From a virus, in IMG/VR virus record IMGVR_UViG_3300047392_000164, positions 1 through 64,000 of that record: a stretch of DNA of 64,000 nucleotides. One strand, written 5' to 3'. Under the pieces are notes generated by a model, which worked only from the letters and a program-made list of their open reading frames with translations, ran no database searches and was not told the origin of the DNA. Below, one piece after another: positions 13,646-58,191 of this stretch (position 1 is the first letter of the stretch; every line of letters starts with the position of its first letter). The translations under genes and the position numbers were made by a program.

Positions 13646-13968
13646 TGTTTTTCACAAACAAACTTGAAGTTTCAAATCTTAAAGTTAAACTTGAAGATGC
13701 CAACGCAAATGTTGAACGTCTTAAAGCGCAATTGATTAAGTTGCAGAATGATGAAGATACTTCAAAGGCTACAGTATCGGTTGACTTTAGCAAGATCAAA
13801 TGTTTTTCTATAGAACGTAATCAAAGCAACTACAGACCATGCACAATCTTAGGTTACAACTTACTCACTGATGCAGAAAATATTGGTCCACGCGAATGGA
13901 CTCTATATTGCTCAGTTGAACAACATGAAAAACTTGTTGAACTCTTTAACAAGCAGAAAGGCAAATAA
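13645..13968 (+). CDS. Protein of unknown function with N-terminal coiled coil
   Basis: A 107-residue product with a heptad-like N-terminal helix (LEVSNLKVKLEDANANVERLKAQLIKL, about residues 7-33) and a small mixed domain. It begins at the last base of the preceding stop (TAATG) and its own stop overlaps the clamp gene start in the same way, so it is translated with the clamp operon. Not recognised. Confidence 0.7.
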   Translation: MFFTNKLEVSNLKVKLEDANANVERLKAQLIKLQNDEDTSKATVSVDFSKIKCFSIERNQSNYRPCTILGYNLLTDAENIGPREWTLYCSVEQHEKLVELFNKQKGK

Positions 13969-14633
13969 TGCAATTATCAAAAGAAACTCTCGCCCTGATC
14001 AAGAACTTTGCAGGTATCAACGGAAGCCTTATGCTTAAGCAAGGCAACAAGTTGGCTACTATCTCCGAAGGCAAGAACGTCATGGCTGAGGCAACTATCA
14101 CCGAAGAATTCCCAAGTGACTTCGGCATCTATGACTTGAACGAATTCCTAAGTTCATGCTCTCTATTCGACAATGCATCTATCGAATTCAAAGAAAAGTA
14201 TGCAGTGATTGCTGACTCAACTAATACGAACTCACGTATCAAGTTCTTCGCAGCAGGTGAAGGTGTTGTTAAAGCTGCACCAAGCACAATCAAGTTTCCA
14301 TCAGCCGATGTAACCTTTACACTTAACGCAACTCAACTTGCAATGATTCAACGTACCGCTGGTGCATTGAAGGCAGGTGATGTTACTATCGAAGGTGATG
14401 GTACAACGCTCAGCGTTACAGTTGCTGACAAGAAGAATGATACTTCCAACGCATACAACCATGTGCTTGGTGAAACAACTGAAACATTTAAGGCTCACCT
14501 CAAGATTGAAAACTTGAAGATGTTGCCAAATGACTATGTTGTTGAAATCTCCAAGAAGAAGATCTCTCGTTTCAAGCATACTGCTTCTGACTTGACATAC
14601 TACATCGCTGTTGAAGCTGACTCGGAGTTCTAA
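13968..14633 (+). CDS. gp45: Sliding clamp
   Basis: The 221-residue protein matches T4 gp45 (228 aa): MQLSKETLALIKNFAGINGSLML at the N terminus, GIYDLNEFL near residue 50, and a C terminus ASDLTYYIAVEADSEF like T4 YVVALEAD. The trimeric clamp tethers DNA polymerase and, with gp55, activates late promoters. Three proteins in this window end with clamp-binding-type SLExF peptides (gp55, gp43, C5-methyltransferase). Starts via TAATG overlap. Confidence 0.95.
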   Translation: MQLSKETLALIKNFAGINGSLMLKQGNKLATISEGKNVMAEATITEEFPSDFGIYDLNEFLSSCSLFDNASIEFKEKYAVIADSTNTNSRIKFFAAGEGVVKAAPSTIKFPSADVTFTLNATQLAMIQRTAGALKAGDVTIEGDGTTLSVTVADKKNDTSNAYNHVLGETTETFKAHLKIENLKMLPNDYVVEISKKKISRFKHTASDLTYYIAVEADSEF

Positions 14634-17322: not shown

Positions 17323-17835
17323 ATGAACAAGCAATTTACGCCTCAATCTTGGCAAGCTCTCGGTCAATTCAAAGATATTGAAAAATTCTTTGTTGGCATC
17401 GACGAACAATTTATGCGTCTGCAGAAAATGCATGATGATGTAACCAAGAACATCCCCAACTATCCTCCATACAATATCCGCAAGACCGGAGATAACACTT
17501 ACACTGTCGAACTAGCAGTCGCTGGCTTTGGACAGAGTGAGATTGATATCGAAATCGACGGCGGTAAACTTATTATTCGTGGTAACGTCTCAGCTGAGAA
17601 TGATGCTAACGATTATTTGTTTAAAGGTATTGCCAATCGCGCATTCACTCGTTCCTTTGCACTTGACGATCAAGTCGAAGTTAAAGACGCTGAACTTTTC
17701 AATGGTATGCTAAAGATTGCTTTAGAGCGTCTAGTACCAGAAGAAAAGAAGTCTAAGAAAGTACCTGTGAAGACTAAAGGTGAAAAGCAATTTCTAACAG
17801 AGGAAGAAAAAGATGAAATTCGTTCAAAGTTTTAA
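17323..17835 (+). CDS. Small heat-shock protein (Hsp20/IbpA type)
   Basis: The 170-residue protein carries an alpha-crystallin domain at about residues 45-140: PPYNIRKTGDNTYTVELAVAGF, EIDIEIDGGKLIIRG, YLFKGIANRAFTRSFAL, and the NGMLKIALERLVPE strand typical of IbpA. Such chaperones are common in marine T4-like phages and are thought to help virion or replication protein folding. The N-terminal region and a Lys-rich C-terminal extension are family-typical. AGGAG lies seven bases upstream; the structured leader before it may be regulatory. Confidence 0.93.
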   Translation: MNKQFTPQSWQALGQFKDIEKFFVGIDEQFMRLQKMHDDVTKNIPNYPPYNIRKTGDNTYTVELAVAGFGQSEIDIEIDGGKLIIRGNVSAENDANDYLFKGIANRAFTRSFALDDQVEVKDAELFNGMLKIALERLVPEEKKSKKVPVKTKGEKQFLTEEEKDEIRSKF

Positions 17836-18423: not shown

Positions 18424-20937
18424 ATGAAATTCTATACTAACATTTCCCGTTATGGTAACAACCTCTTATACCGAGGCTACCAAGATGGACGACGAATCAA
18501 AAAGAAGGTTCCATTCAAACCTACCTTCTACGTGAAAGGCAAAGGCCAATCCAAGTTCACAGCACTTGATGGCACTAATGTCGATCCTATTAAAATGGAC
18601 TCAATGCGTGATGCAAAAGAGTTTATTGAAAAATACAAAGATGTCGAAAACTTCAACATCTATGGCAACACTAACTACATCGCACAATACATCGCCGAAG
18701 AATTTCCTGGCGAAATCAAGTTCGATCGTAACAAAATCCGCATTCACAACATCGATATTGAAGTTGCTTCGAATGAAGGATTCCCAGAACCAGACGAAGC
18801 TAAGCATCCAGTAATCTCCATTGCAATTTTGGATAGTGTGCTTGATACGTATTTCGTATGGGCACTCGGTGACTATGATGTAAGCAAATCAATCATGAAA
18901 ACAAAGCAAGTTCGCTACATGAAATGTGTAGATGAAGCTGCATTGTTGCGCGAGCTTGTTAAGTTCTGGCATGAAGAACACACTTGTCCCGATGCACTCA
19001 CAGGTTGGAACATTCGTACATTTGATATTCCATATCTCGTAAACCGAATTGGTCGTATCCTTGGTGAAGATGAAGTTAAGAAGCTATCTCCTTGGGGACT
19101 CGTTGAAGAACGTATGGTCACCATGAAGAAAGGAATGGTTCAAATCTATGACCTCATCGGTATCGCTCAAGTCGATTACATGGACATCTTCCAAAAGTTT
19201 GGTTACTCCTTTGGCCCACAAGAATCGTATCGTTTGGATCACATTGCTTGGGTTGTTCTAGGTGAACGTAAGCTTGACTATGATGGTACACTCCATACGC
19301 TTTACCAAACAGATCACCAAAAGTTTATTGATTACAACATTAAGGACGTTGACTTAGTTGATCAGATGGAAGACAAGATCGCTATGATTACGTTGACCAT
19401 GACTATGGCTTATAAAGCTGGTGTCAACTATGCTGATACGATGGGAACTGTGGGCATCTGGGATTCTCTCATCCACAAAACTCTGCTTGAACAGAACATC
19501 ATTGTACCTCCTAACAAAGATAGTTGGAAGAATGACTATGAAGGTGGCTACGTAAAAGAACCTCAGTGCGGTGTCCATGATTGGGTTGCATCCTTTGACG
19601 TTAACTCACTCTATCCTAACATCATTGTGCAATGGAACATGAGTCCAGAAACAATTATGAAAGGCGTGGTTGAACCAGGAATTACTGTAGACAAAATGCT
19701 TGCGGGTTATAAGAACACTCGTGATATGTCTATGGCTGCAACTGGCCAATACTTCTCTAATGAAAAACAAGGCTTCATGCCAAAGATCATTGAAGAAATG
19801 TACAACGAACGTGTTATCATTAAGAAGAAAATGCTCGATTCAAAGAAAGAACTCGAAGCATGTGATAAGAGTAACAAAGCTGAAGTGTATCGTATTGAAC
19901 GTGACATTGCTCACTTTGAAAACCAACAGACTGCGATTAAGATTCTTTTGAACTCACTTTATGGTGCTCTTGGCAATAAGTACTTCCGTTACTTCACGAT
20001 GGAAATCGCTGAAGGTATCACCATCACAGGTCAGTTCATTATTAAGTGGGCAGAAAAGCATGTGAATGGTTTCCTAAACAAAACTCTAAACACTAATAAA
20101 GACTATGTTATTGCTATTGATACTGACTCTGTGTACGCTGGCTTGGGTGATCTTGTCAACACTGTCATTCCTGATGGAACCACAGAAAAGAAAGTCGACT
20201 TCCTCGACAAAGTTTGCGCCAAGATCGAGAAGGATGTTCTTGATGTTGCGTTCAAAGAACTAAAAGAAAGCTGTAACGCCTATAAGCAGCGTATCAGTAT
20301 GAAGCGTGAAGGTATTGCTGATCGTGGTATTTGGACTGCAAAGAAACGATATATTCTAAACGTATGGGATAATGAAGGAGTTCGCTATGCTAAACCAAAG
20401 CTCAAGATCATGGGCATTGAGGCCATCAAGTCGTCTACTCCGGCGCCGTGTAGAGAGGCTTTTGAAGAACTTTTCCAGATTCTCATCAAGGGCACAGAGG
20501 AACAAACTCAACAATACATACAAAGCTTTAGGAATACCTTTGATGCTTTACCGGTCGAAAAGAAAGCCTTTCCGCGGGGCGTAAGCAACCTAAAGAAGTA
20601 CATGGACAACAAGCTGATTTACAAGAAGGGTACACCTATCAATTCTCGTGCAGCAATCTTGTTTAACCATCTTCTCAAGCAACACGGGCTAGAGAATAAA
20701 TATGAAGCTATCAAGGAAGGCGAAAAGATCAAGTACATTTACCTTGATCCGAAGAATCCTTTGCGAGAAGACGTCATTGCCTTCAGCGAAATTCTTCCAC
20801 CTGAATTTGGATTGCATCGTTATATTGACAACACTACTCAGTTCGAGAAGTCATTCCTAGATCCTGCTAAAATCATCTTAAATTCTATTGGATGGAAAGC
20901 AGAAGAGGAAGCTTCATTGGAGGACTTCTTTGGATAA
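18424..20937 (+). CDS. gp43: Family B DNA polymerase
   Basis: The 837-residue enzyme has 3'-5' exonuclease motifs HNIDIEVAS, NIRTFDIPYLVNR and YNIKDVDLV, then polymerase motifs DVNSLYPNII (A), KILLNSLYGALGN (B) and IDTDSVY (C). T4 gp43 has about 900 residues. The C terminus SLEDFFG (831-837) is a gp45-binding peptide. It is one continuous frame, not split as in some marine relatives. The ATG follows a 26-base leader made of the right arm of the terminator and lacks a clear Shine-Dalgarno. Confidence 0.97.
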   Translation: MKFYTNISRYGNNLLYRGYQDGRRIKKKVPFKPTFYVKGKGQSKFTALDGTNVDPIKMDSMRDAKEFIEKYKDVENFNIYGNTNYIAQYIAEEFPGEIKFDRNKIRIHNIDIEVASNEGFPEPDEAKHPVISIAILDSVLDTYFVWALGDYDVSKSIMKTKQVRYMKCVDEAALLRELVKFWHEEHTCPDALTGWNIRTFDIPYLVNRIGRILGEDEVKKLSPWGLVEERMVTMKKGMVQIYDLIGIAQVDYMDIFQKFGYSFGPQESYRLDHIAWVVLGERKLDYDGTLHTLYQTDHQKFIDYNIKDVDLVDQMEDKIAMITLTMTMAYKAGVNYADTMGTVGIWDSLIHKTLLEQNIIVPPNKDSWKNDYEGGYVKEPQCGVHDWVASFDVNSLYPNIIVQWNMSPETIMKGVVEPGITVDKMLAGYKNTRDMSMAATGQYFSNEKQGFMPKIIEEMYNERVIIKKKMLDSKKELEACDKSNKAEVYRIERDIAHFENQQTAIKILLNSLYGALGNKYFRYFTMEIAEGITITGQFIIKWAEKHVNGFLNKTLNTNKDYVIAIDTDSVYAGLGDLVNTVIPDGTTEKKVDFLDKVCAKIEKDVLDVAFKELKESCNAYKQRISMKREGIADRGIWTAKKRYILNVWDNEGVRYAKPKLKIMGIEAIKSSTPAPCREAFEELFQILIKGTEEQTQQYIQSFRNTFDALPVEKKAFPRGVSNLKKYMDNKLIYKKGTPINSRAAILFNHLLKQHGLENKYEAIKEGEKIKYIYLDPKNPLREDVIAFSEILPPEFGLHRYIDNTTQFEKSFLDPAKIILNSIGWKAEEEASLEDFFG

Positions 20938-21481
20938 TATTCGAATCATCAAAACCGGCATCAAAGTCGATAAGATATTGAATCAACTAAAGCAGTTCGC
21001 TGAAGACTGGGGCGCAGCTCGTAATATTGAAGGCGCTAAGAGTTGTATCGATGAACACGGATTCCCTGAGGTTGAAGCTGGTGTGCTTCAACTTATTATG
21101 GGTGCAGTCACTAGCTTGGATCAGTATGTAGGCGACAGCGAGTTATGTAAGCCTACTCCTGCATACTATCATCACACCGAAATTATTCGATTTTTGAAAA
21201 GACATTTTCATGATCACAGCCGATGTGGATTCTTATCCCTGCCGGTTGGAGGAGTCGTTGGCAAACACATTGACGTAGGTAACTACTATCTAACACGTGA
21301 TCGCTATCATCTTTCAATTCAAGGCACATATGAATACTCAGTCGGTGATGAATCTGTCATAGTTGAACCGGGCACTCTCTTGTGGTTTAATAACAAGCTT
21401 GAGCATGGTACTCGAAACATTGGAGATGACATCCGCATCACCTTTGTATTTGACGTTCCTCATGACAAGTCAAATCCTTGA
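20930..21481 (+). CDS. 2OG-Fe(II) dioxygenase, aspartyl/asparaginyl-hydroxylase-like
   Basis: A 183-residue protein with a double-stranded beta-helix oxygenase core: H113-I-D115 (HxD), distal H159 in LEHGTRN and R169 for 2-oxoglutarate, in the arrangement of aspartyl/asparaginyl beta-hydroxylases. The best start is a TTG at 20930, five bases after GGAGGA (20919-20924); an in-frame ATG at 20888 would lie deep in the polymerase gene. It overlaps gp43 by eight bases, so translation is coupled. Substrate unknown: a protein side chain is the family expectation; a nucleic-acid role is possible but unsupported. Confidence 0.8.
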   Translation: MDNIRIIKTGIKVDKILNQLKQFAEDWGAARNIEGAKSCIDEHGFPEVEAGVLQLIMGAVTSLDQYVGDSELCKPTPAYYHHTEIIRFLKRHFHDHSRCGFLSLPVGGVVGKHIDVGNYYLTRDRYHLSIQGTYEYSVGDESVIVEPGTLLWFNNKLEHGTRNIGDDIRITFVFDVPHDKSNP

Positions 21482-26021: not shown

Positions 26022-26512
26022 AAGAAGACTACTTCAAACAAGTTCTACGTAAAGCTGAACACATTGGTGCTTTTACTTTAGATAAAGTGAATAGAAAGCT
26101 TGAATTCAAAAGCATTCATAAAACAAAAGCATTCACTGAGATTGGCGATCTAGTGTACTTTTTCATTCATAAAAAAGACATTCATAAAATTGGCGAAACA
26201 TCTTCTCAAAGTGGATTCTATTCTCGTAAAGCTGAATACACTAAAACAGCTGAGTATCAAGACAGCACCACATCTAAAATCATAAACTATATGATTACTA
26301 ATGACATTAAAGAATATGATGTCGTTGCTATTCGTATTCCACGAAAGACCGAAACTCTAGTTTCAGCTATTACCGGAAGTGTTCACACTAAAGATATAAG
26401 ATTGACAAAAGACTACGAATCAATTTATATAAGTGAAGCATACATGTGTGGTTACACTTTACCTCTAAATCGAGAAGCAAATAAACATGACAAATCAAGA
26501 AATCCTCGGTGA
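26018..26512 (+). CDS. Possible GIY-YIG-fold nuclease-like protein
   Basis: The 164-residue protein contains VYFFIHKKDIHKIGETSSQSGFYSRKAEY around residues 47-75, reminiscent of the GIY-YIG core (x-I/V-Y-x-I ... K-I-G-x-T) in T5orf172/MUG113-type proteins. A later NDIKEYDVVAIRIPRK strand and a conserved Glu in YISEAYM fit the fold. The match is partial and the exact motif residues differ, so nuclease activity is uncertain. Overlaps neighbours at both ends. Confidence 0.45.
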   Translation: MKEDYFKQVLRKAEHIGAFTLDKVNRKLEFKSIHKTKAFTEIGDLVYFFIHKKDIHKIGETSSQSGFYSRKAEYTKTAEYQDSTTSKIINYMITNDIKEYDVVAIRIPRKTETLVSAITGSVHTKDIRLTKDYESIYISEAYMCGYTLPLNREANKHDKSRNPR

Positions 26513-26915
26513 CATTGGCGAAATCTGGTATCACGCTCACTTTGGTGGCGTACCATCGACTGACAAGTATGATAGCGACAAAGATCACACTGATGAAGAT
26601 GGTCGTGAAGTTGAGATCAAAACTCAAAGCCGTCATCCTTATGGATGCTTCACAGTCAACACTGCGCATACAAATCAACTTAGAAAATGTCTAGAAGTAG
26701 ATAGATTAATTTTTATTGAGTACAGTAAAAGTGATACAATTATAGTACATGAATGTACTGATCGTACGTACTATACAACCACTACTGCAGATGGTCGCCG
26801 CATGGCTTGCTGGCCAATTGAAGATATGACAATCATTGCTAAGTGCAAGAACAAAAAGCTAGCAAACCTAATGCGCAATTTCTCTAACTCTAAAACCCTG
26901 AAATACTATGACTAA
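26487..26915 (+). CDS. PD-(D/E)xK-type nuclease-like protein
   Basis: The 142-residue protein begins with GDIGEIWYHAHFGG and has a run of acidic residues ending D-G-R-E-V-E43-I-K45, matching the D...ExK active-site layout of restriction-endonuclease-like folds, followed by strands (YGCFTVN, LIFIEY, TIIVHEC). It starts 26 bases inside the previous gene. A role in host DNA degradation would suit the hydroxymethylcytosine operon, but this is inference. Confidence 0.55.
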   Translation: MTNQEILGDIGEIWYHAHFGGVPSTDKYDSDKDHTDEDGREVEIKTQSRHPYGCFTVNTAHTNQLRKCLEVDRLIFIEYSKSDTIIVHECTDRTYYTTTTADGRRMACWPIEDMTIIAKCKNKKLANLMRNFSNSKTLKYYD

Positions 26916-27377: not shown

Positions 27378-28115
27378 ATGTTAAATCATAGCACTATACA
27401 TGAAGTACGTCAAGAATTTGCACGTTTATACCAAGACCAAAAGTTTGTTACCGATAAGTCGGGTGTAAAGACTATTGAAATTATTGGCGCTAGCTTCTGG
27501 GCTAACTCAGCAACTATCTTTGGTGAACCCAATGCTGATTACATTCAACGTGAACTTGATTGGTATAAGTCTCAATCATTAAATGTGAATGATATTCCTG
27601 GCGGCACGCCTGCAATCTGGAAACAAGTCGCAGATTCTGAAGGCTTCATCAATTCCAATTATGGTTGGTGTGTATACTCACCTGAAAACAATGATCAGTT
27701 TGCTCATGTTGTAACTGAACTTGAAGATCGTCCTGACTCACGTCGTGCAACCATGATCTACACACGTCCTACAATGTGGGGTGATCATAATAAGAATGGT
27801 CGTTCTGACTTCATGTGTACTAACACAGTTCAGTATCTCATTCGTAATGGTCGTATCTATGCAGTAGTTAATATGCGTAGTAATGATGCATGGGCAGGTT
27901 ATCGTAATGATTATGCATGGCAGCTGCATGTATTGAATCATGTTCGTGATGAGTTACAATTCCGTGGCAAATATTATGAACGTGGTGAAATCATCTGGAA
28001 TGCAGGTTCATTGCACATTTATGAACGTCAATTCTACTTGGTTGATAACTACCTAAAGACACGTGAAATTTCTATCACTAAAGAAAAGTATGATGCTAAG
28101 TACGGGATTGTCTGA
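27378..28115 (+). CDS. gp42: dCMP hydroxymethylase
   Basis: The 245-residue protein is a clear T4 gp42 homologue (246 aa). Matches include TDKSGVKTIEIIGASFWA, INSNYGWCVYS, RPDSRRATMIYTRPTMW, SDFMCTNTVQYLIR with catalytic C147, and VNMRSNDAWAGYRNDYAWQ. It uses methylene-tetrahydrofolate to turn dCMP into 5-hydroxymethyl-dCMP, so the phage DNA should carry hydroxymethylcytosine. In-frame ATGs exist at 27369, 27372 and 27378; the last is nine bases after GAGGA and aligns with T4 gp42. Confidence 0.96.
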   Translation: MLNHSTIHEVRQEFARLYQDQKFVTDKSGVKTIEIIGASFWANSATIFGEPNADYIQRELDWYKSQSLNVNDIPGGTPAIWKQVADSEGFINSNYGWCVYSPENNDQFAHVVTELEDRPDSRRATMIYTRPTMWGDHNKNGRSDFMCTNTVQYLIRNGRIYAVVNMRSNDAWAGYRNDYAWQLHVLNHVRDELQFRGKYYERGEIIWNAGSLHIYERQFYLVDNYLKTREISITKEKYDAKYGIV

Positions 28116-28551
28116 GTGGGGTAACCGTTATCTTTCTCTTGCTAAAGAAGTCTCTACTTGGAGTAAAGATCCTAGCAAAAAGATTGGTGCTGTTGCGGTA
28201 GGCGAAAAAGGTCAGATCCTTGCACAGGGTTACAATGGCTTTCCTCGTGGAATCCTCGACAGCGCTGATCGTTATAATGATCGTCCTACAAAGTATAAAT
28301 ACGTCGTTCACGCTGAAATGAATGTAATCTATAATGCTACATTCAATGGAGTTTCTCTCAATGGTGCACGTTTGTTTGTCTACGGATTGCCTGTTTGTTC
28401 TGAATGTGCAAAAGGAATTATCCAAGTAGGAATTCAAGCAGTGACTGTTTTCAGTGAAGACGAAGTCCCAGAAATCTGGACAGACTCTTGGGATACGACT
28501 CAAAATATGTTTAAAGAAGCTGGTGTAAGTGCACTTTGGATTAGGAAATAA
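28090..28551 (+). CDS. cd: dCMP deaminase
   Basis: A 153-residue zinc deaminase with the paired motifs HAEMN and PVCSECAK (Zn ligands His and two Cys, Glu as proton shuttle) and an N-terminal KKIGAVAV...GYNGFPRG segment. It converts dCMP to dUMP for thymidylate synthesis by ThyX. Shorter than T4 Cd (193 aa), lacking the T4 zinc insertion. The start overlaps gp42; ATG 28093 is an equally good start. Confidence 0.88.
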   Translation: MMLSTGLSEWGNRYLSLAKEVSTWSKDPSKKIGAVAVGEKGQILAQGYNGFPRGILDSADRYNDRPTKYKYVVHAEMNVIYNATFNGVSLNGARLFVYGLPVCSECAKGIIQVGIQAVTVFSEDEVPEIWTDSWDTTQNMFKEAGVSALWIRK

Positions 28552-28552
28552 A

Positions 28553-29758
28553 ATGAAAGTAGCTATTATCATGGGACGCGGCATTGAAGGTTGCGGCGTC
28601 ACAAAGTTTACAGTAGAACAAACTAAATGGTTGGCAAAGAATGGCCACGAGTTTATTGTGTTCTCCTCTAAGGATAAATCATGGACACGTAAGAATGCCC
28701 ACGATGTATCAAATGTCGTTCAATTGAAATTCGCTAAGGCTGAAGAAACTAATAAGATGATTGTTGGCTGCAATGAAGCCGATGTAGTTATCATTAATAG
28801 TCTTCCTTCGATTGGACATCCTGATGAATGTATTAACCAATTTAAGCGAGCGCTAAATGAAATCACAAAACCAGTCGTCCTCATCCAACACGATCACTCG
28901 TCCCACTCGATTCGTCGCAATGCTGCAATCGATGAGTCCATTAGAAAGGCTAGCATTCTTTTTGGCCATTCTTCTCGCAACGATTTCGCTAAGCACGTAT
29001 CTACGGTAACTGATGGTGGTGGACTTGCAGGATTCTTTGGCGAAGATAACTCAAAGACTATTCTGAATTTCCAACCAGGACTTGACTTTGATTCAGTACG
29101 TGCTAAGTATTGGAAACCTATTGAAGAACAGAATCCTATTATGAACAAATGGATTGGCCGCACCACTTCGTGGAAAGGCTATGTTCAGATGTTCAAGTTC
29201 CATAACGAATTCCTTCGTCCTAATGACTACATCACTACTTTTGAAGGTATTGAAAAGTCACCTGCATATCTTGGCTTCCGTGAACTATCAGAGTTTAATG
29301 GAATGATTGACCAAGACATTAATACTGTCACCCTTGAAAAGGACCAACCAGCATATGTCTTCGGACCTTTTATCAACGATCAAATGCTTGGCCGCATGGC
29401 TACTGTTGGATTTGGTTATCAACTTTCCGTTCTTGATGAGCGTTTTATTGAACGATCCATCGAGTATACTCATTGCGAAGTCGTTTGTTCCGGCGTAGTT
29501 CCAGTATTCCGCAAGTCTTATGGTGAACGTTGTACTCATCGTCACTTTGGTAAAAAGCTAATTGACTGTGAGAACACAGGTACTATTTGGCTTGATGATA
29601 ATGACATGCAGCCTGCTTTCGATCTGCTAAATAAGTTAGCCGCTGACCCAGTATTGCGCAATCAATACCGTGAACAGGCATATGAATTTTATAAACTACA
29701 CCAAGACTCTCAGTATACTTTTGCTGAGATGTTTGAACAGATTGAAAATAACTTATGA
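28553..29758 (+). CDS. agt: DNA alpha-glucosyltransferase
   Basis: The 401-residue GT-B enzyme closely matches T4 alpha-glucosyltransferase (400 aa): MGRGIEGCGVTKFTVEQ, QHDHSSHSIRRN, NKWIGRTTSWKGYVQMFKFH, a VGFGYQLS segment and an IEYTHCEV...VPVFRKSYGE nucleotide-binding region. It adds glucose from UDP-glucose to 5-hydroxymethylcytosine in DNA, protecting against restriction. It sits directly after gp42 and dCMP deaminase. AGGAAAT precedes ATG 28553. Whether glucose is the sugar is inferred from homology. Confidence 0.94.
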   Translation: MKVAIIMGRGIEGCGVTKFTVEQTKWLAKNGHEFIVFSSKDKSWTRKNAHDVSNVVQLKFAKAEETNKMIVGCNEADVVIINSLPSIGHPDECINQFKRALNEITKPVVLIQHDHSSHSIRRNAAIDESIRKASILFGHSSRNDFAKHVSTVTDGGGLAGFFGEDNSKTILNFQPGLDFDSVRAKYWKPIEEQNPIMNKWIGRTTSWKGYVQMFKFHNEFLRPNDYITTFEGIEKSPAYLGFRELSEFNGMIDQDINTVTLEKDQPAYVFGPFINDQMLGRMATVGFGYQLSVLDERFIERSIEYTHCEVVCSGVVPVFRKSYGERCTHRHFGKKLIDCENTGTIWLDDNDMQPAFDLLNKLAADPVLRNQYREQAYEFYKLHQDSQYTFAEMFEQIENNL

Positions 29759-30945
29759 GCTTAACACATGCTTTTATCGTACCTCTCATCGGTGGTCAAG
29801 TCCTGGGGCAGGAAGCTGCCTTTGGTTCAAAACCTGATTACATCTTATCATACACCCCTTTCTCAGGCAACGACGCACATATCATCAACCGCTTCCCGAA
29901 TAAGCCGTACATTCTTTTGGATCAAGGCGGCGTTCATCCTCATTACGTTGACGTCGTTGGTACTACTTGTCCTTGCGCTGGGCTCAGCTCTTTATCCCCT
30001 TCTGCAAATTCCGATGCATCCGTAAATGATTGGATGTACACTACGGCAACGTATGTACTAGAGAAGATGCAACCCAAAGTCTTTTGGGGAGAGAATGCAC
30101 CACGATTTGCTGGTGAAATGGGTCGACCAATCGTAGCAAACCTAATGAAGATTGCTAAGAAGAATGGTTACACTATGTCGATCTATCGTACTAAGTCTCT
30201 CCTTCATGGATTGAGCCAAGTACGTGAGCGATCATTCTACTTCTTTTGGAAAGGCGATAAAGTTCCTGTGTTCAACTACTTTGATCGTCAATATGAAACC
30301 ATTGAAGAGTTGCTAAGGAAAGTTCCAAAGGATGCAAGTCAGAACACTGTGACTAACGAGAAAATCCCATCCAAAGATGATCCATTTTATCGTTACATTC
30401 TAGAAGAAATGCATGGTGGAATTACTCACCAAGAGTTCTTCAGCAAGATTGAGAAGACAGTTGATACGATGTCTTACATTGAGAACAATGGTATCTCCTA
30501 TAAGACTGTCAAGCTTTGGATGGAGAAGAATGGCTACGAAAAGATTGCGTCTAAACTGGATGCTATCCAAGACAAGCTAGATGCAGGTGGAAACATTATG
30601 CGCCGTTACTCGGTAATTGGTAAGGGTTACACCGGTGCTTTTGTAGGTCATATGCCAATGATGTTGACTCATCCTGATGAAGATCGTTACATCACATACC
30701 GTGAAGCAATGAGTATCATGAAGTTGCCATACGACTTCGAGTTATTGAGTCCTAAGAAGAACTTGAACCATGTATGTCAGAACGTTCCTGTAACCACAGC
30801 AACAGACATGGCAATGGAAATTAAGGCGACTCTTGAAGGTCGTAGAGATATGATTAGTGCACCTCGTATCTATCAATTTAATGCTTCAAAGACTCAACGG
30901 ATTGAAGATGATGAACCTGCACAAAGTTTAGAATCATTCCTGTAA
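29755..30945 (+). CDS. DNA (cytosine-5) methyltransferase-like protein
   Basis: The 396-residue protein has the C5-methyltransferase motifs in order: an AdoMet loop IGGQVLGQEAAFG (I), CPCAGLS with catalytic C74 (IV), FWGENAPRF (ENV-type, VI), LSQVRERSFYFF (QxRxR, VIII), and a C-terminal region VIGKGYTGAFVGHMP (IX-X). All catalytic residues look intact. Motifs I-III are divergent. The C terminus QSLESFL is a clamp-binding-type peptide. It overlaps the glucosyltransferase stop (ATGA). In DNA already carrying hydroxymethylcytosine its target is puzzling; see findings. Confidence 0.85.
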   Translation: MSLTHAFIVPLIGGQVLGQEAAFGSKPDYILSYTPFSGNDAHIINRFPNKPYILLDQGGVHPHYVDVVGTTCPCAGLSSLSPSANSDASVNDWMYTTATYVLEKMQPKVFWGENAPRFAGEMGRPIVANLMKIAKKNGYTMSIYRTKSLLHGLSQVRERSFYFFWKGDKVPVFNYFDRQYETIEELLRKVPKDASQNTVTNEKIPSKDDPFYRYILEEMHGGITHQEFFSKIEKTVDTMSYIENNGISYKTVKLWMEKNGYEKIASKLDAIQDKLDAGGNIMRRYSVIGKGYTGAFVGHMPMMLTHPDEDRYITYREAMSIMKLPYDFELLSPKKNLNHVCQNVPVTTATDMAMEIKATLEGRRDMISAPRIYQFNASKTQRIEDDEPAQSLESFL

Positions 30946-31009: not shown

Positions 31010-31732
31010 ATGAGTGCAGCATCAGATAAGTACGAAAAGGACGTAGCCGACAACGTCGACAAAATCCCAGGTGTCAAGGCCGTTAGACCGCCAGGAGATA
31101 CTGCATACGCTGACGTAAAAATTACATACAAGAATGTTACTTCTTGGATGGAAGTAAAGATGAACCACACCGACAACTTGTCGAATCCACGTGTGTTCTA
31201 TAAGAATGGTAAGTGGGATACTACCTACGAAACTCCAGCTGCAAAAGCTGCGATCGACATTCTTAATAATTCTCCAATGGCAAAGAAATTTATTCAGGAT
31301 CTTGCTAAGTTTTCAGGCATTCCTGTTAAGATGATTAAGATTCCTACCACAAAAGGTGGACTTAAAGAAGAAGGTGCTGTTCCTCTTCATGTAATGAAAG
31401 CTTATTTTGATAAGCCTGGTGTAAATCGCTACATTGCAAACAGCGAAAACATGGATCTTGGTAAAGTAGTAACAGATCACTACACCAAAGGTAAAGCCGA
31501 ACCAGCATACTATATGCAAGCAGGTGACGACTTCTATCGCATCTCTAATAAAGATCCATTCAAACTTGGTGCAACAATCCCATTGCTATCTGGTCGTGGT
31601 GACTTTAAAGTTCGTGTATCAACACGTTCAGAATTCTATGAAGTACAGGCCGAAGTAAAGATTGCACATATGCCAGACAGTAAATATTCTGTTAAGCCTG
31701 GCACTAAGAAACAAAATCCATTCCTAAAATAA
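31010..31732 (+). CDS. PD-(D/E)xK-like late protein of unknown function
   Basis: The 240-residue protein has an N-terminal segment DTAYADVKITYKNVTSWMEVKMN, where D35 and E48-x-K50 fit a restriction-endonuclease-like active site. The rest (GAVPLHVMKAYF, YYMQAGDDFYRIS, RVSTRSEFYEVQAEVKIA) looks like a second mixed domain. Similar proteins are conserved near head genes of marine T4-like phages. The late promoter upstream suggests virion assembly or packaging. GGAG precedes the ATG. Confidence 0.55.
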   Translation: MSAASDKYEKDVADNVDKIPGVKAVRPPGDTAYADVKITYKNVTSWMEVKMNHTDNLSNPRVFYKNGKWDTTYETPAAKAAIDILNNSPMAKKFIQDLAKFSGIPVKMIKIPTTKGGLKEEGAVPLHVMKAYFDKPGVNRYIANSENMDLGKVVTDHYTKGKAEPAYYMQAGDDFYRISNKDPFKLGATIPLLSGRGDFKVRVSTRSEFYEVQAEVKIAHMPDSKYSVKPGTKKQNPFLK

Positions 31733-56455: not shown

Positions 56456-57610
56456 ATGGCTACAACTAAAGAAAAAGAACCAAAACTCACGGCCTCTGAG
56501 AAACGTGCTCAGAAGCGCCGTGAAACCGCTGCACAAATGGAGCAAGTCTTCGGCACCGGTAAAGGTAGCGCTGAACCTACTATTAATCCTCTTGACTACA
56601 CCGCATCTTTGATGCGAGCATTGAACTACTACAACTCTGCCTTTGAAAACAAAGACAAACGTAAGTGGTTCATGTCGTACGTTGGCAAAAAGAATGAGGA
56701 ATTTGATTCACTGTCTGACTGGGACTTCCGTTCAGTTGGCACTATCATTCGTCTCAAGCAACGTGAACAACCTCTGCAAGAACATCACCTTAAGTTCATT
56801 GAAGATTCTATCGAAGAACTTCGTGAAAAAGCTAAAGGTGGTAAAACTTTCTCAGCCTTGAAAGGTGAACCTAAAGCTAAGGAAGAAAAACCAGTAGTCA
56901 CGATTCAAGATCGTATTGCTGAAGCAGCATCTACTCACATCGGTGAAATCAATGGACTCATTGATGATTACATTATGAACGATACTGAAATCGATGTGGG
57001 TGCCTATTTGAAAGCTAACAACGTTAGTCCACAAGTTTCTAAGTTGATTCCTCAAGCTTTCACTAGAACTATTGAAGAACTCAACGAAGTCATCGAAGGA
57101 AAAGATAAACAATTGGTTGAAGGTTATTCTTTCATTAAGAAGACCAAGCTTAAAAAGCTAATCAAATCAATTGAAGCTATCCAAGATGCTTGTGCTCAAC
57201 AAGTTGTTACAGCAAAAGCTACTCGTAAACCACGAGCTCGTAAGGAAAAACCAGCATCAGTGTTGGCAGCTAAAGTTAAGTTCATGAAAGAATTTGCTGA
57301 ACTTACTTTGAAGTCTGAACAACCTGTTAAAATTGTTGGTGCATCTGAATGCTGGATTTACAACACGAAGTATAAGAAACTTCAAGTGTATCGTTCACTC
57401 GGTGCTCTATCAATCAAAGGTACAACCATTCTTAACTATGATGTAGCAACATCTGGTTCTAAGACTATGCGTAAACCTGAACTCGTCACTGGTTATGCCG
57501 GTATGACTAAACGTACTTTGGCTCAGGAGTTTAAAACTCTTAAGACTAAGGAAGCTGCAGTCAATGGTCGTATTAACGAAGACTGTATTATTTTGAAAGT
57601 GTTTTCATGA
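56456..57610 (+). CDS. Conserved T4-like protein of unknown function
   Basis: The 384-residue protein has a basic N terminus, a helical region (YTASLMRALNYYNSAFENKDKRKWFMSYV ... DWDFRSVGTIIRLKQR), a Lys/Arg-rich middle (KATRKPRARKEKP) and a C-terminal domain (VKIVGASECWIYNTKYKKLQVYRS). Similar large proteins of unknown function occur near dsbA/rnh in marine T4-like phages. DNA binding is suggested by charge only. Confidence 0.7.
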   Translation: MATTKEKEPKLTASEKRAQKRRETAAQMEQVFGTGKGSAEPTINPLDYTASLMRALNYYNSAFENKDKRKWFMSYVGKKNEEFDSLSDWDFRSVGTIIRLKQREQPLQEHHLKFIEDSIEELREKAKGGKTFSALKGEPKAKEEKPVVTIQDRIAEAASTHIGEINGLIDDYIMNDTEIDVGAYLKANNVSPQVSKLIPQAFTRTIEELNEVIEGKDKQLVEGYSFIKKTKLKKLIKSIEAIQDACAQQVVTAKATRKPRARKEKPASVLAAKVKFMKEFAELTLKSEQPVKIVGASECWIYNTKYKKLQVYRSLGALSIKGTTILNYDVATSGSKTMRKPELVTGYAGMTKRTLAQEFKTLKTKEAAVNGRINEDCIILKVFS

Positions 57611-58191
57611 AATTAGCTGAATACGAATTTCCTCTTCTAATTGTAGAAAATCTATTCAACGAAGAAGAACTAGTACACGTATGGAATGAGATTGATAGTG
57701 TCAATCAATTCATGATGAAGCCTGATTCTTTTTCTGCAAAACAACTTGATGGAACTTTAAAGAAGAATAATAAAGCATGTTGGATTGACATGGTCTATGG
57801 TCCTAATAGAAATGCTTCATTCATCTTAAATTCTCACAAAAAGATCTTCAATAAAGATTTTGAAAAAGCTGCAAGTGATATGCATTGGTTTTATAGATAC
57901 ATGTCTCATCTTACTAAAGATGCTACACTATTAAACTTTTATGAAAATGATGATCACTATCATTCACACACTGATGATTCGACTATCACTACACTCATCT
58001 GGCTTTGGAGAGAACCAAAAGCATTCACAGGTGGTGACATGATCTTTGACGACAAACATCTTTTTCCTATTCAAAATAATACAATGGTGATGTTTCCTAG
58101 TTGTATTAACCATGAAGTTACTAAAGTAAACATGGAAGATAAGCCCGGCTATGGCCGATTTGCAATTACAATTTTTTCACATATTATATGA
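57607..58191 (+). CDS. 2OG-Fe(II) oxygenase, prolyl-4-hydroxylase type
   Basis: The 194-residue protein has the P4H-type core: LLNFYENDDHYHSHTDDST with H121-x-D123, FTGGDMIFDD, then MVMFPSCINHEVTKV with distal H169 and R184 for 2-oxoglutarate. Marine T4-like phages commonly encode such enzymes. Target unknown (protein or nucleic acid). Overlaps the previous stop by four bases and the RNase H start by four. Confidence 0.85.
   Translation: MKLAEYEFPLLIVENLFNEEELVHVWNEIDSVNQFMMKPDSFSAKQLDGTLKKNNKACWIDMVYGPNRNASFILNSHKKIFNKDFEKAASDMHWFYRYMSHLTKDATLLNFYENDDHYHSHTDDSTITTLIWLWREPKAFTGGDMIFDDKHLFPIQNNTMVMFPSCINHEVTKVNMEDKPGYGRFAITIFSHII

Follow-up and report, generated by a model that had tools for sequence, protein, structure and literature searches.

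Gene Composition of the Operon

The window considered here is a stretch of 64,000 bases (positions 1 to 64,000) of the IMG/VR virus record IMGVR_UViG_3300047392_000164, which is 71,198 bases long and carries T4-like replication genes. Four head-to-tail genes occupy positions 27378–30945 of its plus strand and encode a gp42-like deoxycytidine monophosphate (dCMP) hydroxymethylase, a dCMP deaminase, a DNA alpha-glucosyltransferase (AGT), and a homologue of cytosine C5-methyltransferases (C5-MTases), which is the subject of this work. An earlier note on this DNA had pointed out the paradox of a C5 enzyme in an operon for 5-hydroxymethylcytosine (hmC), where C5 is already occupied. The paradox is real, and it is conserved across a large family rather than being an oddity of one operon.

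The gp42-like protein (27378–28115, plus strand) is an Asp-type homologue of thymidylate synthase (TS) with the signature RSND..GYRND, and its top PDB match is the T4 deoxycytidylate hydroxymethylase (dCH; 295 bits). In the T4 enzyme, C148 is the nucleophile and D179 selects cytosine (PMC6400193). The gp42-like protein contains C147, D144, and D178, so that both the catalytic Cys, read in the earlier note as C147, and the cytosine-selecting Asp are there. The dCMP deaminase gene (28108–28551, plus strand; PF00383, 9.5e-17) is a conserved neighbour; its start is taken to be a TTG, and an in-frame GTG lies at 28063. The AGT gene (28553–29758, plus strand) begins with an ATG at 28553, and its product matches PF11440 (E = 5.7e-90) and T4 AGT (350 bits) over the full length, which bears out its assignment as a T4-type enzyme. 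Since the closest matches are T4 dCH and T4 AGT, hmC synthesis and alpha-glucosylation are well-supported predictions for this phage. In environmental contigs, TS homologues of the Asp177 type go with modified cytosine (PMC8670742).

The gene of the C5-MTase homologue (29755–30945, plus strand; 396 aa) starts with an ATG that overlaps the AGT stop codon by 4 nt. It was assigned from its PF00145 match, a residue table against M.HhaI, and conservation within its family.

Family of the C5-Methyltransferase Homologue and Its Remodelled Pocket

An IMG/VR scan yielded 360 confirmed relatives of the C5-MTase homologue, and a second, profile-based scan yielded at least 589; the family thus comprises several hundred IMG/VR loci of aquatic viruses. 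The locus set used below includes 161 loci, which fall into 82 clusters when grouped at 90% identity. Among named phage records, clear relatives were found only in the S-TIM5 group, Pseudoalteromonas phage XG4, and Bacillus phage G. Bacterial and archaeal assemblies contain nine loci, one of them partial, mostly in metagenome-assembled genomes; they are taken as binned phage contigs. Among open-licence papers, judged by their titles and passages, no recognised description of this family was found.

The window protein matches PF00145 (8.6e-15, 55.4 bits, cut-off 22) from residue 65 onward only, and it scores 26.8 bits with TIGR00675 (dcm), whose cut-off is 100.65. Both the Pfam and the NCBIfam matches begin downstream of motifs I–III. 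Residues were mapped on the M.HhaI sequence, whose length and key residues were checked by a script, and conservation was counted over 65 cluster representatives.

The catalytic motifs, described in the earlier note as intact PC, ENA, and QxRxR, are indeed present and invariant in the representatives. These are motif IV with the catalytic Cys74 (CPCAGLS, residues 72–78, 29968–29988), motif VI with E113 (ENAP, residues 113–116, 30091–30102), and motif VIII with R157 and R159 (QVRER, residues 155–159, 30217–30231), all on the plus strand. The equivalents of M.HhaI C81, E119, N120, R163, and R165 are found in 65/65 sequences, as are PC, the Glu of motif VI, and QxRxR, while M.HhaI V121 is replaced by Ala or Ser. 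Decay of a pseudogene was considered and ruled out by these invariant residues and by a mean column identity of 60% over the 65 sequences.

The part of the protein corresponding to the AdoMet (S-adenosylmethionine) pocket is altered; the contact roles of the compared positions are those known from M.HhaI. In motif I (residues 8–14, 29776–29796, plus strand), IVPLIGG replaces LFxGxGG, with P10, L11, G13, and G14 invariant. None of the representatives has the DxFxGxGG pattern: they read xIVPLIGG, where M.HhaI G20 is replaced by Leu in 65/65, F18 by Val or Ile, and A19 by Pro. The acidic residue of motif II is missing in all 65, with Ser (98%) or Thr (1%) at the position of E40; an alignment made by eye places this motif two residues further on, still without a conserved acid. 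In motif X (residues 341–345, 30775–30789, plus strand), CQNVP replaces GNxVP, so that G303-N304-S305 of M.HhaI become Cys-Gln-Asn, with CQ in 65/65. Meanwhile, 60 bacterial C5-MTases have G20 in 60/60, an acid at E40 in 60/60, G303 in 59/60, N304 in 58/60, and ENV in 60/60, although this set, drawn from the best-scoring matches in two genome groups, is biased towards canonical enzymes. Canonical phage enzymes of the Melnitz type likewise lack N304. In the region between motifs VIII and IX, 17 of the 128 columns are at least 98% conserved.

Hence the front part that the earlier note called divergent is correctly described, and the change is conserved family-wide. Because the replacement residues are conserved too, the alignment suggests that the pocket was rebuilt by selection toward something different and did not simply decay.

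Co-Occurrence with Asp-Type Hydroxymethylases

A gp42 homologue was found in 36 of the 37 clusters that have at least 6 kb upstream. The 37th cluster, S-TIM54, has a gene annotated as ThyA nearby, whose S-TIM5 counterpart carries the Asp signature RSNDMATGVPLD. Asp-type TS homologues are also encoded by XG4 (signature RSCDAIFGFPND) and by phage G (signature RSNDIIFGTPYD), in the latter beside an ordinary TS. The Asp signature fits 114 of the 116 gp42-type matches, several of which are repeat copies of one genome. One exception is the ordinary TS encoded by phage G (GLPFN), which does not fit the pattern; the other is a pattern match in locus L141 that reads Asn in an unrelated-looking stretch. 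Chance neighbourhood is ruled out by the synteny recurring across clusters.

In a control of 80 loci of the canonical Melnitz-type phage C5-MTase, a TS or gp42 homologue was present in 0/80; this control is one lineage, and for 26 of its loci 6 kb or more of flanking sequence was available on one side. The first canonical control (P0005) consisted of 2 loci only. In the converse search of 80 gp42 loci, the C5-MTase homologue was detected in 51, and 23 were too short to judge.

Two TS homologues, one in S-TIM5 (ThyA, L082:4775–5611) and one in Bacillus phage G (233481–234188), carry the Asp that selects cytosine and may, to judge by this residue, be dCMP hydroxymethylases.

C-Terminal Clamp-Type Peptide

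T4-like DNA polymerases bind the sliding clamp through their C-terminus. The window encodes a family B DNA polymerase (gp43-like; 18424–20937, plus strand; PF00136, 1.5e-34) ending with EEASLEDFFG, and a gp45-like sliding clamp (13968–14633, plus strand; PF09116, 2.4e-8), the presumed partner of this tail. The C5-MTase homologue ends with a similar peptide, SLESFL (residues 391–396, 30925–30942, plus strand), so that the two proteins form a SLEDFFG–SLESFL pair and the tail of the homologue is polymerase-like. In the first 81 loci, L392 is conserved at 95% and F395 at 100%.

The pattern L[EDSQANG]xF[FLMIVY] was sought in the last nine residues in the protein families of the gene-carrying loci; since it was chosen after the tails had been seen, the counts are a description and not a blind test. 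The tail is present in 116 of 137 distinct complete C5-MTase homologues, in all DNA polymerases (31/31), in all TET-associated glycosyltransferases (TAGT, PF20691; 10/10), in 23/26 proteins of a family of 334 aa resembling beta-glucosyltransferase (BGT-like, with a weak match to T4 BGT), and in 8/14 proteins of the PF18723 family (5-hydroxymethyldeoxyuridine, or 5-hmdU, DNA kinase helical domain). It was found in 11/74 AGTs and in 1/33 proteins of one further family. None of the remaining families had it, including gp42 (0/98), dCMP deaminase (0/89), UvsX-like proteins (0/65), and helicase (0/63). Thus, LExF[FLM] is shared by the polymerase, TAGT, BGT-like, and HMUDK-like proteins and the C5-MTase homologue, whereas enzymes acting at the nucleotide level lack it. 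In T4, gp45 co-purifies with the alpha-glucosyltransferase and not with the beta-glucosyltransferase (PMC13216743). The clamp-type peptide that the earlier note had recognised is therefore a conserved trait of the family; it probably binds the clamp, which would place the action of the enzyme on DNA close to the fork.

Neighbouring Sugar Genes

For 55 representatives, 2.5 kb or more of upstream sequence was available. In 35 of them, the closest labelled gene on that side encodes AGT, a BGT-like protein, or TAGT and lies no more than 400 bases away; the others have epimerase or kinase-like genes upstream. In XG4, the homologue is preceded by a nucleotidyltransferase-like gene and two glycosyltransferase-like genes, which were named by eye. 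As the sugar genes vary and the C5-MTase homologue stays, the action of this enzyme seems independent of any single sugar.

PF18723 proteins occur in several hmC-type operons (L046:5230–6288, L061:5828–6886, L047:5119–6198, and L171:7834–8982). Several of them are clamp-tailed, and they are candidate hmC-DNA kinases.

Divergent Relatives in Named Phages

The homologues of S-TIM5, XG4, and phage G (gp301) belong to the same family according to the alignment and the tree, and each genome also encodes an Asp-type TS homologue. They differ in having 24–32% identity and no clear clamp-type tail, and their annotations read just "DNA methylase" or "hypothetical". S-TIM5, XG4, and locus L174 have the Leu and Ser changes of the pocket in common. 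In the tree, phage G and XG4 are on long branches, and therefore their placement is unsure. The XG4 homologue (L083:5363–6580) has VC at the catalytic motif instead of the PC dipeptide.

Other Genes in the Window

Two genes of the 2-oxoglutarate oxygenase type mentioned in the earlier note were confirmed at 20888–21481 (PF05118) and 57607–58191 (PF13640). The former is aspartyl/asparaginyl hydroxylase-like, and it begins within the last part of the polymerase gene. Tet_JBP had zero matches in seven records, including the 71 kb window record, in a search run with no positive control. A TET-type route, in which 5-methylcytosine is made first and oxidised later, was rejected given this result and an Asp-type hydroxymethylase that already supplies hmC. 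A T4-type dCTPase (PF08761) was not found in the window record, T4 gp56 not having been run as a control. The operon is flanked by genes of small proteins (26487–26915 and 31010–31732) containing PD-(D/E)XK nuclease-like strings (EDGREVEIKTQ and SWMEVKM), which lack Pfam support. A gene of an HSP20-type small heat shock protein (PF00011) is located at 17323–17835.

Proposed Function and Alternative Explanations

In C5-MTases, the catalytic Cys attacks C6 of the base, and C5 becomes activated. Enzymes of this group have further reactions in vitro: engineered M.SssI couples thiols to hmC (PMC7176277), M.MpeI was inferred to strip hmC of its hydroxymethyl group (PMC11347137), and M.HhaI with formaldehyde produces hmC at its own sites (PMC7176277). 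A clamp-tethered enzyme whose donor pocket is altered, working in a genome rich in hmC, could use any of these three reactions.

We favour, at somewhat under even probability, an altered hmC-directed chemistry carried out by a C5-MTase-derived enzyme dedicated to the hmC pathway. The fuller version is more tentative still: a natural family in which the C5-MTase fold has moved away from AdoMet methylation and, tethered to the clamp beside glycosyltransferases, exchanges or removes the hydroxymethyl group of hmC. The enzyme would ride the sliding clamp behind the fork, flip its target cytosine out of the freshly replicated phage DNA, and add Cys74 to C6 of the flipped base. The hydroxyl would then be swapped for another nucleophile, or the hydroxymethyl group would be removed, probably at specific sequences only. 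Ordinary methylation is not the expected outcome, given the changed donor pocket and a C5 that already carries CH2OH. The gene, its neighbours, its residues, and its tail are seen directly in the sequence; the binding to the clamp, hmC as the substrate, the abandonment of AdoMet, and the product are inferred.

Several observations weigh against this proposal. The pocket argument is an argument from alignment, and the alignment of motif III is unreliable. The change of the pocket is graded, since phage G gp301 has Phe at the G20 position yet retains F18 and the acidic residue of motif II, and the link of phage G to the family is itself weak. Because the clusters are kin to each other, they represent about four independent lineages instead of 37. 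Six of the 80 gp42 loci have at least 9 kb downstream and no C5-MTase homologue, and the gene is thus not essential to hmC DNA. Finally, covalent complexes of M.MpeI with 5hmC required AdoMet, at least with dithiothreitol (PMC11347137).

The homologue might instead be an AdoMet-dependent C5-MTase with an unusual pocket, which methylates leftover cytosine in nascent phage DNA and shields it from nucleases or restriction. We regard this as somewhat less likely, although the catalytic motifs and the region of motifs IX and X are recognisable, the GG of motif I is retained, the clamp tail fits mopping up at the fork, and the phage G relative keeps the motif II acid. Loss of N304 alone is evidently tolerated, as Melnitz-type enzymes lack it too. 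However, the G20 of motif I and the acid of motif II are lost in 65/65 sequences, compared with 0/60 bacterial enzymes, and a rebuilt pocket is not obviously needed for such a mark. The enzyme could also hydroxymethylate leftover cytosine in DNA, with formaldehyde or methylene-tetrahydrofolate as the donor, turning missed positions into glycosylatable hmC. The precedent of M.HhaI with formaldehyde (PMC7176277) speaks for this, and it would account for the altered donor pocket, the constancy across different sugars, and the tie to gp42; but no folate-binding signature was identified, and the long conserved stretch from motif VIII to motif IX suggests a sequence specificity awkward for mopping up, which makes this version improbable. 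An equally low probability is given to a base-flipping or other DNA-binding factor without turnover, or to an enzyme acting on host DNA. Such roles agree with the altered AdoMet motifs, and in T4 the unmodified cytosine early in infection comes mainly from host DNA, as a host-directed enzyme would require. Nevertheless, a dead enzyme would not be expected to keep the catalytic Cys and Glu and both Arg invariant, and the polymerase-like tail and the adjacency of DNA glycosyltransferases indicate phage DNA.

Of the three guesses of the earlier note, a changed chemistry gains most, from the conserved remodelling of the AdoMet pocket and the co-occurrence with Asp-type hydroxymethylases in the loci analysed, the altered reaction itself being predicted from sequence. 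The marking of residual cytosine at the fork keeps some probability, and its fork part is strengthened by the polymerase-like tail. Methylation of host DNA loses ground, given this tail and the link with the making of hmC.

If the pocket is truly repurposed, the family would be a natural counterpart of C5-MTase chemistry known in vitro and might give common aquatic phages a DNA base that is new. Should the enzyme do no more than methylate residual cytosine, it would still point to a DNA-modifying group with one clamp-type tail, which includes the polymerase, glycosyltransferases, kinase-like proteins, and the C5-MTase homologue. The sequenced isolates S-TIM5, Pseudoalteromonas phage XG4, and Bacillus phage G make the idea testable.

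Comparison with Known Systems

The family resembles PF00145 C5-MTases such as M.HhaI and M.HaeIII in domain order, in the PC, ENx, and QxRxR motifs, and in the long stretch that separates motif VIII from motif IX. Unlike them, it has other invariant residues in place of motifs I, II, and X, ENA for ENV, a tie to hmC synthesis, and a clamp-type tail. The side reactions of M.SssI, M.HhaI, and M.MpeI are alike in their Cys-dependent chemistry at C5 of hmC on the same fold (PMC7176277, PMC11347137); however, these are ordinary methyltransferases observed in vitro, whereas the window family is proposed to be a natural enzyme.

The 5hmC carbamoyltransferase found by MetaGPA is, like the proposed enzyme, a phage protein that modifies hmC further and accompanies TS homologues of the Asp type in environmental phages, but its fold and chemistry are different (PMC8670742); C5-methylase terms are absent from the main text of that paper. 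The T4 alpha-glucosyltransferase with gp45 is likewise a clamp-associated enzyme that modifies hmC at the DNA level (PMC13216743). It differs in being a glycosyltransferase whose clamp contact is backed by co-purification, whereas the contact of the window enzyme is suggested by its tail.

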